Notes under the pieces: generated by a model
Database searches by the model: none
What the model was told of the DNA's origin: nothing
Seen by the model: only the letters and a program-made list of their open reading frames with translations
DNA from: Candidatus Hydrogenedentota bacterium
GTDB lineage: Bacteria; Hydrogenedentota; Hydrogenedentia; Hydrogenedentales; SLHB01
Reading direction: 5' to 3'
Assembly (NCBI GenBank): GCA_016215105.1
Contig: JACRLJ010000015.1
Location: forward strand, 65,438-129,437
DNA length: 64,000 bases
Shown here: positions 4,722 to 61,424 of the stretch, in pieces
Layout: every line of letters begins with the position of its first letter
How positions within the stretch are numbered: position 1 is the first letter of the stretch
Translations under genes and position numbers: made by a program

Positions 4722-5414
4722 ATGAGAATCCTTGCCGCAGACACCACCACATCCATTAACACGGTAGCGCTGTGCGAAAAAGACCGTGTCCTGGCGGAAA
4801 CCTTCGTTGATTGCGGACGCAGGCACTCGGAACGCCTCATGGCTACCGTCGACTGGATTTTGACCGAGGCGGGAATGCCGCTCGACGAAGTTCAGGCGTT
4901 GGCGATCTCGATCGGACCCGGTTCGTTCACGGGTTTGCGTGTCGGCGCCGCAGCCTGGAAGGGGCTGGCTTTCGCCAAGAATCTTCCTCTCGTTGCGGTA
5001 CCCACCCTGGATGCCATGACCCATCTATCGGCGTTTCGCAATGCGGTGGTCTGTACTCTGCTAGACGCCAAGATGGGGGAAGTATTCGGAGCGGTCTATC
5101 AGTTCGAGGACGGGCGCCGCAGCAAGACGCAGCCGGACCGGGTATGCGCCGTCGAACGGATTGTGGAAGGCATGACCGGCGAGGTCATCTTCCTGGGTGA
5201 CGGCGCAACGCGCTATCGCGAGCGCATCGAATCCGTCGTACCCGGAGCGGTGTTTGCGCCATCGACCTGTTCACGTCCGCGCGCGTCGGCCGTCGCCGCC
5301 GAGGCGTTCAACCTGCTGGCGCGGGGCGCATGCGCGGACCCGGCATTGGTTGCGCCCGTTTACTTGCGCGAAGCGCAGGCGTCCGTGCCGCGCCAGAGTG
5401 TGGCCGCCCCATGA
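4722..5414 (+). CDS. tsaB: tRNA threonylcarbamoyladenosine biosynthesis protein TsaB
   Basis: Non-catalytic partner of TsaD in making the universal t6A37 modification of ANN-decoding tRNAs. ASKHA-fold protein of 230 residues. The N-terminal nucleotide-binding-like loop MRILAADTTT is followed by GPGSFTGLRVG at 65-75, the hallmark of the TsaB/TsaD family. The ATG at 4722 is chosen because homology begins exactly there; an upstream in-frame extension to 4602 has no family character. Its stop overlaps the start of rimI by four bases (ATGA), the usual tsaB-rimI pairing, so the two are translationally coupled. The 270 bases upstream hold no clear gene. Confidence 0.95.
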   Translation: MRILAADTTTSINTVALCEKDRVLAETFVDCGRRHSERLMATVDWILTEAGMPLDEVQALAISIGPGSFTGLRVGAAAWKGLAFAKNLPLVAVPTLDAMTHLSAFRNAVVCTLLDAKMGEVFGAVYQFEDGRRSKTQPDRVCAVERIVEGMTGEVIFLGDGATRYRERIESVVPGAVFAPSTCSRPRASAVAAEAFNLLARGACADPALVAPVYLREAQASVPRQSVAAP

Positions 5415-5872
5415 TCGCCCGCGAAACAACGCCGTTGACGTTCGTTCCCGTTCAGGAGGAGCACCTGCCGGACATCATGGCCATATCCGCGGACGCCTAT
5501 CCCGACTCGTGGACCGAAGGAATGTTTCGAGATGAATTCGGAAATCATCTATCCCATTTCTACGTGGCATTTGACGGAGCCACCCTGGTAGGCTATGCAG
5601 GATTCTGGCTGGTGGCGGATGAGGTCCACATCACCACGATCGCCGTTAGACTGGACCGGCGCGGGCGCGGATATGGCCGGCAGCTCATGGACCATCTGCT
5701 AGAGTCGGCCGGGGCGCTGGGCGCGACGCTCGCCGCATTGGAAGTACGAGCTACGAATGCGCCCGCGATCAACTTGTATACCGCTTTGGGATTCAGAATC
5801 GCAGGGCGGCGCAAGGGCTATTACTCCAAGACGAACGAAGACGCGATCGTCATGATGAAGGATTTGAGCTAG
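5411..5872 (+). CDS. rimI: Ribosomal protein S18 alanine N-acetyltransferase
   Basis: GNAT-fold acetyltransferase that acetylates the N-terminus of ribosomal protein S18. 153 residues, the usual length. The acetyl-CoA pyrophosphate loop is RRGRGYG at 83-89, and the family block EVRATNAPAINLYTALGF spans 111-128, followed by GRRKGYY at 132-138, all typical of RimI. It starts within the tsaB stop (ATGA at 5411-5414). Its TAG stop at 5870-5872 coincides with the left end of a palindromic repeat element, which probably forms the 3' end of the tsaB-rimI transcript. Confidence 0.93.
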   Translation: MIARETTPLTFVPVQEEHLPDIMAISADAYPDSWTEGMFRDEFGNHLSHFYVAFDGATLVGYAGFWLVADEVHITTIAVRLDRRGRGYGRQLMDHLLESAGALGATLAALEVRATNAPAINLYTALGFRIAGRRKGYYSKTNEDAIVMMKDLS

Positions 5873-6017
5873 GAGTTCGGCCAGAAAGCCGGCTAATTGA
5901 CGCGGCGCGGCCAGAAAGCATCTGCACGTTGTTTAACACCATCGCTCGATTTTGCCGGGTTTTGGTAAAAGGAGGCTTTCTGGCCGCGCCTCTAGAGTTC
6001 CTCGTTGAGGGATTCCT
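5871..6017 (+). repeat. Dispersed hairpin element, copy A (full length)
   Basis: About 147 bases between rimI and the GH116-like gene. A perfect 16-bp inverted repeat (GGCGCGGCCAGAAAGC at 5904-5919, its complement at 5975-5990) encloses 55 bases. A second CGGCCAGAAAGCCGG mini-hairpin lies at about 5879-5893. The right end is GGATTCCT at 6010-6017; the matching left end is degraded (AGGAGTTC at 5871). The same structure, with the same 55-base loop and much of the loop sequence, recurs at 52934-53071, and a deleted form at 10959-11000. It is non-coding. It resembles a MITE or REP-type element and could also act as a transcription terminator. Confidence 0.85.
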
Positions 6018-6057: not shown

Positions 6058-8652
6058 ATGGCAAGTAACATCAACGTAGCAAGCGTTCCCGAGGACGAAC
6101 CATCGGGTGTGCCGATGGGCGGCGTCGGCGCCGGTTGCATCGAAATGGGCCGCGACGGCCGTTTTCGCAATATCACGATCAATAACAACCGCAGTACGGC
6201 GGATCGCATCGCGGTGGCGCCGGGGTCGTTTCTCGCCGTGCGCGCCGGCGTGAAAGGCAAAGTGTTTACGCGGATTCTGCAGCCGGAATCCAGCGCGGCC
6301 TTTGGACAAGCCGGCATTATCCCCTCGTACACACCGTCCGAACAGCTTTCCTGGCGTGGCCTTTACCCGTGCTCGCACTACCATTTGGACGACCCGAAAT
6401 TCCCGCTCGACGTTTCCTGGAGCGCCATGGCGCCGATCATTCCCTATGACACGGAAGCCTCCTCGCTCCCGGCGCTGTTCATCGCATTTTTCATTACCAA
6501 TCCGGGAGAAACCGCGGTAGATGTCTCGGCGCTCGTCAACTGGGAGAATCTCTGCGGATGCGCGCGGGACCATTTCCCGGAGCGGCGGGGACCCGTGCTG
6601 CCCGTAGTGTTGAAGCGGGAAGACGAAGCCGAGCAGGAAGAAGCCGAAGCCGCCGAAGGCCCTCCGCGCCCCGCAGGTCTCGAGTTTGGCTTTCATGGCG
6701 AACTTCGCGACAACGCGGAAGGCAACTACTGTCTGGTCGCAAAGCAACAGCAGGGAGTGGACGTATCATTGCTGGCATGGGACGAGCGCAGTCCCGATGA
6801 ATTGATTCACTTCTGGGAGGAATTTCACGACCAGGGCCGGCTGCGAAATCACCTGTCACGCAACGAGACCAGCCATTCCGGCGCCGTATGTTGCTCGCTA
6901 ACGCTCGAGCCGAAGACTTCGCGGCGTCTGATCTACGTGTTGACCTGGTATTGCCCGCGATTTGTCGTCGAGGGCGTCGATCTCGGCAACGGCTATACGA
7001 ATCGGTTCCGGGGCGCGGTGCAGGCCGCGGAAACGTGTTTGAAGTACCACAAGTACTTCCTCAACTCCGTCGAGGCGTGGCAGAAACGGATATTCTCGTC
7101 GTCGCTGCCCCGATGGTTCTGCAAAATGCTGGTCAACAACAATTGCGTGTTCTCGACCAACACCCTCTACACCAAGGATGAGCGCTTCGCGATGTTCGAG
7201 TCCCCGAGCGAGCCGCTGACCGGCTCGCTGGATCGACTCCTATACAGCTCGCTGGCGACGTTGCTCTTCTTTCCCGATTTTGCCCATCGCGAGCTTCTTC
7301 AATTTGCTATCGCCAAGGACCCGGCCGCGCCCGGACGCATCTACCGCTCACTGGGCGCTCTGTGCGCGCACAAGCCGCAGCACGGCCCGCGAGATCAAAT
7401 GGATATCAATCCGGTGTTCATTTTGCTCGCCTACCGGAACTACGCCACGACCGGAAATCTGGTCATACTTCGGAATACGTGGCCGCGAATCAAAGAGGCC
7501 TTCGGATATGTGCTCGCCCAGGATAGCGACGGCGACGGCCTGCCCGAACAATCGGGTTGCTCGAACACGTTTGACGGCTGGGCGGTGTACGGCGTTGACA
7601 GCTACACTTCGAGCCTGTGGCTGGCCGCGCTGCGCGCCTACGCCAAACTCGCCACGGCGTTGGGACACAAAGACGAAACGAAACGCGCAAACACCGTATT
7701 GGCAAAGGCGGTGGACGCTTTCGAGGAGCGGTTATGGAATGCGGATGGCGGCGCCTATCGGCTCTTTCACGAGAAACCCGCTCACGGCGCCGGCCTCGCC
7801 GCCGCCAGCGAAACCTGTTGCAGCGCGCAATTGGCCGGCCAGTGGTTCGCCGATTTCCTGTGCCTGGGCCACCTGCTCCCGGACGAGCATCTCGATTCCG
7901 CAATTCGCGCTATGAGCAAACTGTTGGAAAAACCGGGCGGCGTGGCGCACGGTCTGCTGCCTGACGGCGCGGCGCCGGTGAATCCCCCCTCGGCAGAGGA
8001 GAATTTGGATCCCGACAGGACCTGGCCCGCACTGTATGTCGCGTATTACTCGAGCTTGATGATTTACCATGGCAAGGTAGATCGGGGACTGCACAACGTG
8101 CAGAAGGTTTACCAGAACATTCATGTTACGCGCAGCATTCCGTACAACCAGCCGTTCGCGTGGGATATCAAGACCAACAGTCCCTCGAGTCATGGCATGG
8201 AGCGGCACATGGCGGCCACGTCGATATGGTATGCGTTCTACGCGGTGCAGGGCTTTCACATGAACTTGCCCGAACAAACGCTGTGGATACGGCCAAACCT
8301 GCCAAAGAACGTAGATCGGCTGAGCACGCCGCTCTTTACGCCGTCGTGCTTTGGCTGGCTCACGTATAAGGAAGAACGCGCCAAAGGCTACATGCAGACC
8401 GTTGAGCTCGCACTGGACAGTCCCGTTCCCGCCAAGATAATCGTGCTGCGAATTCCCACATGGGTCGAGGAGGTGACGGTCCGGTGCGTGTCCACCGCGG
8501 GCGAAGAACCGACGCGGCACATGCTAGGGTTTGACGGCGCCGATCATTTGGTCGAGATCCAGCCCAGCCATCCAATCGTGGTGGGCAACTCGCTGACCAT
8601 AACCGTGACAGGAACCCGGTTTGGAAAACGGCCCACACCGGGGACGACATGA
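6058..8652 (+). CDS. GH116-like beta-glucosidase (GBA2/DUF608 family)
   Basis: Predicted retaining beta-glycosidase of 864 residues related to the bile-acid beta-glucosidase/glucosylceramidase GBA2 family. The N-terminal beta domain carries GVPMGGVGAGCIEMGRDGRF (about 17-36), characteristic of GBA2_N. The C-terminal (alpha/alpha)6 barrel holds DGDGLPEQSG, then NTFDGW near 504-509 and YGVDSYTSSLWLAALRAYAK; in characterised GH116 enzymes the Asp of the NT(Y/F)D motif is the acid/base. The segment FESPSEP at about 380 lies where the nucleophile Glu is expected, but that assignment is tentative. No signal peptide is visible, so a cytoplasmic role on imported glycosides is likely. The substrate is unknown. 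It stands alone, 33 bases before coaE. Confidence 0.85.
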   Translation: MASNINVASVPEDEPSGVPMGGVGAGCIEMGRDGRFRNITINNNRSTADRIAVAPGSFLAVRAGVKGKVFTRILQPESSAAFGQAGIIPSYTPSEQLSWRGLYPCSHYHLDDPKFPLDVSWSAMAPIIPYDTEASSLPALFIAFFITNPGETAVDVSALVNWENLCGCARDHFPERRGPVLPVVLKREDEAEQEEAEAAEGPPRPAGLEFGFHGELRDNAEGNYCLVAKQQQGVDVSLLAWDERSPDELIHFWEEFHDQGRLRNHLSRNETSHSGAVCCSLTLEPKTSRRLIYVLTWYCPRFVVEGVDLGNGYTNRFRGAVQAAETCLKYHKYFLNSVEAWQKRIFSSSLPRWFCKMLVNNNCVFSTNTLYTKDERFAMFESPSEPLTGSLDRLLYSSLATLLFFPDFAHRELLQFAIAKDPAAPGRIYRSLGALCAHKPQHGPRDQMDINPVFILLAYRNYATTGNLVILRNTWPRIKEAFGYVLAQDSDGDGLPEQSGCSNTFDGWAVYGVDSYTSSLWLAALRAYAKLATALGHKDETKRANTVLAKAVDAFEERLWNADGGAYRLFHEKPAHGAGLAAASETCCSAQLAGQWFADFLCLGHLLPDEHLDSAIRAMSKLLEKPGGVAHGLLPDGAAPVNPPSAEENLDPDRTWPALYVAYYSSLMIYHGKVDRGLHNVQKVYQNIHVTRSIPYNQPFAWDIKTNSPSSHGMERHMAATSIWYAFYAVQGFHMNLPEQTLWIRPNLPKNVDRLSTPLFTPSCFGWLTYKEERAKGYMQTVELALDSPVPAKIIVLRIPTWVEEVTVRCVSTAGEEPTRHMLGFDGADHLVEIQPSHPIVVGNSLTITVTGTRFGKRPTPGTT

Positions 8653-8685: not shown

Positions 8686-9294
8686 ATGAAGATCTACGGA
8701 TTGACAGGCGGCATTGGCAGTGGCAAGTCGGAGGCCGCCCGCCAGTTTGCCGCGCGGGGAATTCCGGTCATTGACGCGGACGCCATCGGCCACGCGGTGA
8801 TTGCGCCGGGTGGCGCGGCAGTCGAGCACGTGATTAATGCGTTCGGTTCCGGCGTCCTTACCGATGGTATAATTGATAGGAAGAAGGTTGGCGCACGGGT
8901 GTTTTCAGACCCCGAGGCGCTTGCGCGCCTGAACGCGCTCGTTCATCCGATGATCTACGCGGAAGTCATGAAGCGGTGCGCGGTCCTGGCCGAAGAAGGC
9001 CACGGCGTGGTCATCATCGAGGCGGCGCTGCTTGCGGAGAACGGCGCCAAGGAGCCGTTTCTCGCGGGGCTCATCGTGGTCACGAGCCCTGCCGCGGTGC
9101 GCATCGAACGGCTCGTTTCGAGCCGAGGCATGAGCAGAACAGAAGCAGAACAACGTATCGCAGCGCAAGCGCCCCCGGAGCGCAAGGCCGCATTCGCGAA
9201 CTGGGTAGTCGAAAACGACGGTACGATTGAGCAGCTACGCGCGCGAATTGACCGCATCGCGCATGAGATAGACCATGGCCAAGACCCTGACTAG
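8686..9294 (+). CDS. coaE: Dephospho-CoA kinase
   Basis: Last step of coenzyme A synthesis: phosphorylates the 3'-hydroxyl of dephospho-CoA with ATP. P-loop GGIGSGKS at residues 8-15, then the family motif IPVIDADAIGHAV (29-41) and the lid region further on. 202 residues, standard. The ATG at 8686 places the family's N-terminus (MKIYGLTGG) right; an in-frame ATG at 8662 would add eight unrelated residues. Its end overlaps the next gene by 20 bases, suggesting coupled translation with the zinc-ribbon protein. Confidence 0.95.
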   Translation: MKIYGLTGGIGSGKSEAARQFAARGIPVIDADAIGHAVIAPGGAAVEHVINAFGSGVLTDGIIDRKKVGARVFSDPEALARLNALVHPMIYAEVMKRCAVLAEEGHGVVIIEAALLAENGAKEPFLAGLIVVTSPAAVRIERLVSSRGMSRTEAEQRIAAQAPPERKAAFANWVVENDGTIEQLRARIDRIAHEIDHGQDPD

Positions 9295-10958: not shown

Positions 10959-11000
10959 CTAGAGGCGCGGCCAGAAAGCTAGGTTTCTGGCCGGATTCCT
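10959..11000 (-). repeat. Dispersed hairpin element, copy C (internally deleted)
   Basis: Reads in the opposite direction to copies A and B. In its own direction it starts AGGAATCCGGCCAGAAA, then directly joins GCTTTCTGGCCGCGCCTCTAG, the right arm seen in copies A and B. The 55-base loop and the second-arm region are gone, leaving a compact hairpin. It ends three bases from the stop codon of the EF-hand gene and about 50 bases after the flippase-like gene, between two convergent genes, so it would serve well as a bidirectional terminator. Confidence 0.8.
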
Positions 11001-11003
11001 AAT

Positions 11004-52688: not shown

Positions 52689-52933
52689 GGTCTACTCTCT
52701 CACTTGCACGGTTCTCACGGCGATTCGCGGGTTCAATGGCGGATAAGCCATAGTCCCAATGTCACGCGCGCCGCTTCATCGCAGGCCGCATCACGCGGCG
52801 GCGATAGTGTATCACATCGGCGGCGCGCACCGCATTTCCCGCGTGTCACCCTGCGTTTCCGCGGACTGATGGTAACGCGTGATATGGTAAGTGCAACTGC
52901 GAGCGTAGCGCGACAGGGCCGGGAGAGTCTGCT

Positions 52934-53071
52934 AGGAATCCAGCCAGAAAGTCCGCTTATTGACGCGGCGCGGCCAGAAAGCATCTGCGCGTTGGTCAAT
53001 ACCATCGCTGGCTCGTGCGGAGTCTTGTTACGTGGAGGCTTTCTGGCCGCGCCTCTAGCGCCGGGATTCCT
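52934..53071 (+). repeat. Dispersed hairpin element, copy B (full length)
   Basis: 138 bases between terminal inverted repeats AGGAATCC (52934-52941) and GGATTCCT (53064-53071). The inner perfect 16-bp stem GGCGCGGCCAGAAAGC is at 52967-52982 with its complement at 53038-53053 and a 55-base loop, the same geometry as copy A; a half-stem CAGCCAGAAAG lies near the left end. It sits in the 629-base gap between the divergent NAGS-like and GH36-like genes, whose remaining sequence holds only a possible -10 element. Confidence 0.87.
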
Positions 53072-61319: not shown

Positions 61320-61424
61320 GGCTCCGGCCCAGCCCTGGTTAGGGGCGGCAGACAATAGCCCACGGCGTAAGCCCTGGGACGATCCCACACGCAAAGCCAG
61401 CCCTGTAAGGGCGAAAGATCGCTT
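61320..61424. repeat. Dispersed GC-rich repeat with short hairpins
   Basis: In the gap after the HDOD gene: CCAGCCCTGGTTAGGGGC, a CCCACGGCGTAAGCCCTGGG segment that can pair its ends, and GCCCT-GTA-AGGGC (61400-61412) followed by GAAAGAT. Strings such as AGCCCTGNAAGGGCGAAAGAT recur, from general knowledge, across many genomes of Planctomycetes, Bacteroidetes and related groups as non-coding repeats. Only one copy lies in this window, so the repeat nature is recalled, not shown. Short reading frames through it are not genes. Confidence 0.5.

Follow-up and report, generated by a model that had tools for sequence, protein, structure and literature searches.

A 121-bp hairpin repeat at CTAG sites in a Hydrogenedentota genome, probably a MITE family

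The hairpin repeat and its copies in the window

The window, a stretch of 64,000 nucleotides from Candidatus Hydrogenedentota, contains two full copies and one miniature copy of a hairpin repeat. The full copies are on the forward strand at 5870-5994 (core 5872-5992, AGTTC subfamily) and 52933-53057 (core 52935-53055, 121 bp); the second was delimited by nhmmer and cmsearch together with boundary statistics over 116 copies, and has TA at 52933-52934 and 53056-53057, with CTAG at both junctions. Both contain the 16-bp arms GGCGCGGCCAGAAAGC...GCTTTCTGGCCGCGCC, which are perfect and spaced by exactly 55 bases, and the resulting hairpins span 5904-5990 (left arm 5904-5919, forward strand; inverted right arm 5975-5990, reverse strand) and 52967-53053 (left arm 52967-52982, forward; inverted right arm 53038-53053, reverse). 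The mini form, GGAATCCGGCCAGAAACCTAGCTTTCTGGCCGCGCCTC, is on the reverse strand at 10960-11001 (core 10962-10999, 38 bp), with TA on both sides. The window holds eight matches to the arm at up to three mismatches, compared to 1.84 +/- 1.39 in shuffled sequences; a lone arm lies at position 10964. All three copies are outside genes by the gene model, as an earlier sequence-only reading of this DNA had placed them. The copy at 5870-5994 begins on a stop codon: its left TA and the following G make up the TAG (5870-5872) that ends a GNAT (RimI-like) gene lying upstream at 5411-5872. The top protein match is assigned to Candidatus Hydrogenedentota. Both neighboring genes recur in the best Hydrogenedentota relative, where the element is absent; the second gene was recognized by reading the sequence.

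The sequence-only reading had described the arms and loop correctly, but its bounds for the two full copies (5871-6017 and 52934-53071) must be replaced by the cores given above. The common right end that it proposed, GGATTCCT, lies outside the element and adjoins only these two of 116 full copies, and is therefore a coincidence. The pair AGGAATCC/GGATTCCT was accordingly rejected as the outer ends of the element, its right side being coincidental.

The 121-bp core, GGAATCCGGCCAGAAAGTCGGCTTTTTGACGCGGCGCGGCCAGAAAGC…GCTTTCTGGCCGCGCCTC, was defined with an HMM over the 116 full copies. Its ends are GGAATCCGGCCAGAAAG…CTTTCTGGCCGCGCCTC, flanked on each side by TA within CTAG, with the left boundary falling between TA and GGA(A/G)T(C/T)C and the right boundary between CCTC and TA. 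Across the full copies, the three bases outside the left end are C (76%), T (84%) and A (83%), and those outside the right end are T (85%), A (85%) and G (91%); sequence beyond the CTAG junctions is random, and the boundaries are sharp. The terminal inverted repeats are GGARTYCGGCCAGAAAG on the left and CTTTCTGGCCGCGCCTC on the right, the outer 7 bp being imperfect. Each element carries three GGCCAGAAAG units: an outer left unit, an inner left unit that coincides with the 16-bp left arm, and an inverted unit at the right. The additional unit at the left end had been missed previously; it has the form (A/G)GCCAGAAAG and in the second window copy lies at 52942-52951 on the forward strand, and both sequence and position-wise conservation mark it as conserved in the family.

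The single-stranded DNA is predicted to fold into a hairpin (DNA MFE z -3.35). The end units are conserved at 90-98%, compared to 81% for the loop. Arm changes are one-sided in 95 cases and two-sided in 5, only 1 of the latter being compensatory, and RNAalifold likewise finds almost no compensatory change. The predominance of one-sided changes points to recognition of DNA, by a protein, rather than to a selected RNA stem. An RNA function was rejected on this near absence of compensation and on the lack of an Rfam match, the element matching no family in that search. Within the window, Rfam matches a single locus, an Acido-Lenti-1 RNA (RF01687) at 61331-61378 on the reverse strand, at 40.1 bits. 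Changes private to a single copy amount to 0.019-0.024 in the arms and 0.058 in the loop, or about 2.5-3 times fewer in the arms, a comparison that favors selection on the arms somewhat but is confounded by lineage structure; the constancy of the arms may reflect either that structure or continuing selection.

Copies, forms and placement in the genome

A genome-wide search for the arm in both orientations, as the earlier reading had recommended, found 86 occurrences on each strand and none for the reversed control. A covariance model trained on 30 copies detects at least 149 copies of the hairpin repeat in the 6.68-Mb assembly of 171 contigs, a lower bound because 150 candidates were scored. 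These counts contradict the outcome that would have refuted the earlier reading, a lack of further copies. An HMM search of the 2.15 Mb surrounding copies gave 116 full and 66 partial copies, and copies occur in both orientations. Two interleaved subfamilies, AATCC and AGTTC, have median divergences from their own consensus of 9.5% and 8.3%, and the nearest pair of copies is 3.3% apart; these values give no sign of very recent activity.

Several shorter forms accompany the full element. The third window copy had been taken for a single deleted copy with matching ends. Its ends do match, but the 38-bp form has spread: the palindrome GGAATCCGGCCAGAAAGTCGGCTTTCTGGCCGCGCCTC, with the same ends as the full element, occupies at least 10 sites (10 at no more than one mismatch in the hairpin core). 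Some elements are shortened between their two direct GGCCAGAAAG units, and one 76-bp form (C130) has almost lost the hairpin loop. Numerous copies consist of a left end alone, about 41 bp long and stopping near the hairpin base, and solo right ends are few. The stop point of the solo left ends is uniform, as at C107_33875 position 9141, C41_29501 position 1722 and C154_3594 position 7547.

None of the 116 full copies lies within a predicted gene, with two overlapping a predicted gene edge, under a gene model that is 82% coding. The 1435 CTAG sites outside elements comprise 743 coding sites, 563 intergenic sites and 129 that overlap a stop codon, and relative to this distribution the absence of copies from genes is highly significant (0/116 versus 743/1435 coding, p 3e-35). 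CTAG is itself 4.8-fold under-represented in the genome sample (1629 seen versus about 7832 expected from base composition). Junctions fall on a TAG stop in 24 of 116 cases, compared to 129 of 692 non-coding CTAG sites (p 0.61), and this share is as expected from random insertion at non-coding CTAG. In two cases the copy separates a pair of convergent genes and has a stop codon at either end. Because its first base is G and its last is C, an element inserted into CTAG rebuilds TAG on both sides; insertions at stop codons would thereby do no harm and persist, while insertions within genes would be removed.

Judged by sequence searches, the family is species-restricted. Among 59 relatives of the same order there is no copy, except for one 24-base match at chance level, and a search of 67 other genomes from the phylum revealed no mini-hairpin. 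The exact right end was not found in the scanned public genomes or in viral contigs, and no match was found on plasmids, viruses and plasmids being covered by one search each.

Insertion sites and target duplication

Three copies sit within other repeats that have empty sister sites in the same genome, and these provide a direct comparison of the target before and after insertion. At all three loci the empty sister has one NTAG and the filled site has two TA(G), answering the earlier call for target-site duplications with a doubled TA (or TAG). The C166 copy has empty sisters ACGATCTAGCTCC with the empty site TCTAGCTCC, and its filled site reads TCTC before the element and TGGCTC after it; these junctions are CTAG with TA doubled and later mutated. 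The C103 copy, filled as GCGTA-element-TAGCC, equals its empty sister plus one element and one TA. Its target is of the GTAG type, with G preceding the left TA and the C of the element preceding the right TA. The C78 copy has the target TTAG, and its right junction is nevertheless CTAG. From these junctions it follows that the target supplies the base before the left-hand TA, and the element the right-hand C. Two copies stand in tandem with one TAG in common.

The outer bases are unequal, with C at 76% on the left and G at 91% on the right (p 0.002). This mismatch, along with the CTAG right junctions at GTAG and TTAG empty sites, excludes a 4-bp CTAG duplication in the style of the IS5 group or IS701. 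The duplication may then be 2 bp (TA) or 3 bp (TAG), or the TAG may be carried by the element. The first of these resembles the TA duplication of IS630/Tc1-type elements, here with a strong preference for CTAG. The earlier proposal of a mobile or amplified element is borne out by the copy number, the sharp ends, the random flanks and the empty sites.

Interpretation, partner enzyme and related systems

The best account of these properties is that the 121-bp repeat is a MITE family that inserts in intergenic DNA at NTAG, mostly CTAG, with a transposase acting in trans, and we put the probability of this reading at roughly three in four. The repeat is short, non-coding and multicopy, with defined ends and terminal inverted repeats, and filled sites have two TA (or TAG) where empty sites have one. 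A transposase supplied in trans would bind the tandem pair of GGCCAGAAAG units at the left and the inverted one at the right, cut at the ends and link the element to the TA within CTAG. The likeliest enzyme would be an IS5/IS427-like or IS630-like DDE transposase, as these kinds generate TA duplications of 2 bp. The autonomous source may since have been lost, or may be unassembled, leaving the copies to drift. Three points argue against the MITE reading: the search for a transposase gene with these ends was negative, the asymmetry of the outer bases exceeds the prediction for a simple TA target, and solo left ends near 41 bp in length are more numerous than is usual for cut-and-paste transposition.

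The earlier reading had suggested searching for a RAYT or DDE transposase with matching ends, and none was found in the genome. No transposase gene lies between matching ends in this draft genome (95% complete), and none of the listed right ends outside full copies borders a transposase. The IS630 domain PF13358 and the IS5-type helix-turn-helix domain PF13340 are both absent from the genome; PF01609 has six matches, none with element ends nearby, and the single match to PF13546 is a broken fragment, also with no element ends nearby. Partners of the IS630, IS5 and IS701 types were rejected on these domain searches, which were negative or gave genes that lacked matching ends. With no DDE partner found, the MITE is an orphan, and the partner transposase is therefore lost, unassembled or unrecognized.

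Both the asymmetric target bases and the truncation near the hairpin base would fit transposition through a single strand, as in REPINs or BIMEs, in which two inverted REP units and a spacer are spread single-stranded by a RAYT (a Y1 tyrosine transposase). On that view CTAG would serve as the tetranucleotide for cleavage or guidance, with no duplication of the target. The 16-bp inverted arms, the spacer, the hairpin fold, the singletons and doublets, and the intergenic placement are all shared with REPINs (PMC3116915), and the genome has 13 Y1/RAYT genes. Where RAYT flanks hold REP-like repeats, however, these are unrelated palindromes: seven R27 matches surround L064, R31 lies on both sides of L063, R29 surrounds L061 and L062, and others occur as well. 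Among the loci with REP-like flanks the 121-bp family never flanks a RAYT/Y1 gene as a pair, and it comes near only one Y1 gene, as a stray left-end fragment at about the chance level. Furthermore, both junctions have CTAG rather than the GTAG or CGTC tags of REPs (PMC3733652), and TA is doubled there. A RAYT partnership was rejected on the presence of other REP-like families beside the RAYTs, and spread of this kind is unlikely; of the two classes named earlier, MITE or REP, the first is retained. The RAYT/Y1 genes L060-L064, L052, L054, L056 and L059, with differing REP-like palindrome families in their flanks, form a compact natural RAYT-REP set.

The low rate of change in the arms, private changes included, could instead mean that the repeat is a functional intergenic element, such as a protein-binding hairpin or an RNA stabilizer or terminator, selected by the host and spread by duplication without a transposase. 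We consider this very improbable: placement follows the availability of CTAG and not gene ends as such, compensated arm changes are rare, no Rfam family matches, relatives have no copies, and the empty sites reveal discrete insertion. It is also unlikely that an uncharacterized enzyme integrates the element in fixed orientation at NTAG, CTAG above all, with the element supplying the terminal C (or CTAG), both neighboring genes keeping a TAG stop, and the arms still being selected through a host protein.

As a MITE, the family has close parallels among known repeats. ERIC (also IRU or RU-1) is a 127-bp enterobacterial repeat with TA at its termini and a target duplication (PMC2229807). It resembles the 121-bp family in near-equal length, intergenic location, copy number, hairpin, duplicated terminal TA and lack of its own transposase gene; in a comparison of such features, the new family differs by its 16-bp perfect arms (ERIC has a 7-bp TIR), its CTAG target and its tandem left unit. 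RUP of Streptococcus pneumoniae (107 bp, 108 copies) is likewise a short intergenic repeat with a TA target, but is mobilized by IS630-Spn1 (PMC2229807), a partner type whose domain is missing here. The Correia or NEMIS elements of Neisseria are MITEs with TIRs of about 24 bp, a TA duplication and forms of 107 and 155 bp, comparable to the 38- and 121-bp forms described above; no relation was found, and the CTAG target and two left units are distinctive. The IS5 family offers short TIRs, a 2-bp duplication in most IS427-group elements of a published survey (PMC3281130) and the use of CTAG in the IS5 group (PMC9241763), whereas this genome has no matching full-length IS or IS5-type transposase with the same ends, and the 4-bp duplication of the IS5 group is excluded.

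Our verdict is an orphan MITE family, restricted to one species and comparable to ERIC, RUP or Correia, and not a new kind of system. We found no paper on MITEs in Hydrogenedentota, and the family appears to be undescribed in this little-studied phylum. Its value lies in unusually clean evidence for the target CTAG and for tolerance of insertion, with stop codons rebuilt on both sides. As the genome also harbors several RAYT-REP systems, it offers a natural and useful comparison of MITEs with REPINs. Two other repeats were seen in the merged genome sample: a 78-bp repeat with GGGGACAGACACGCTTTTC-like sequence (40 matches), and a 62-bp palindrome, TTCTTTGTCCGCAAC...GTTGCGGACAAAGAA (17 matches).
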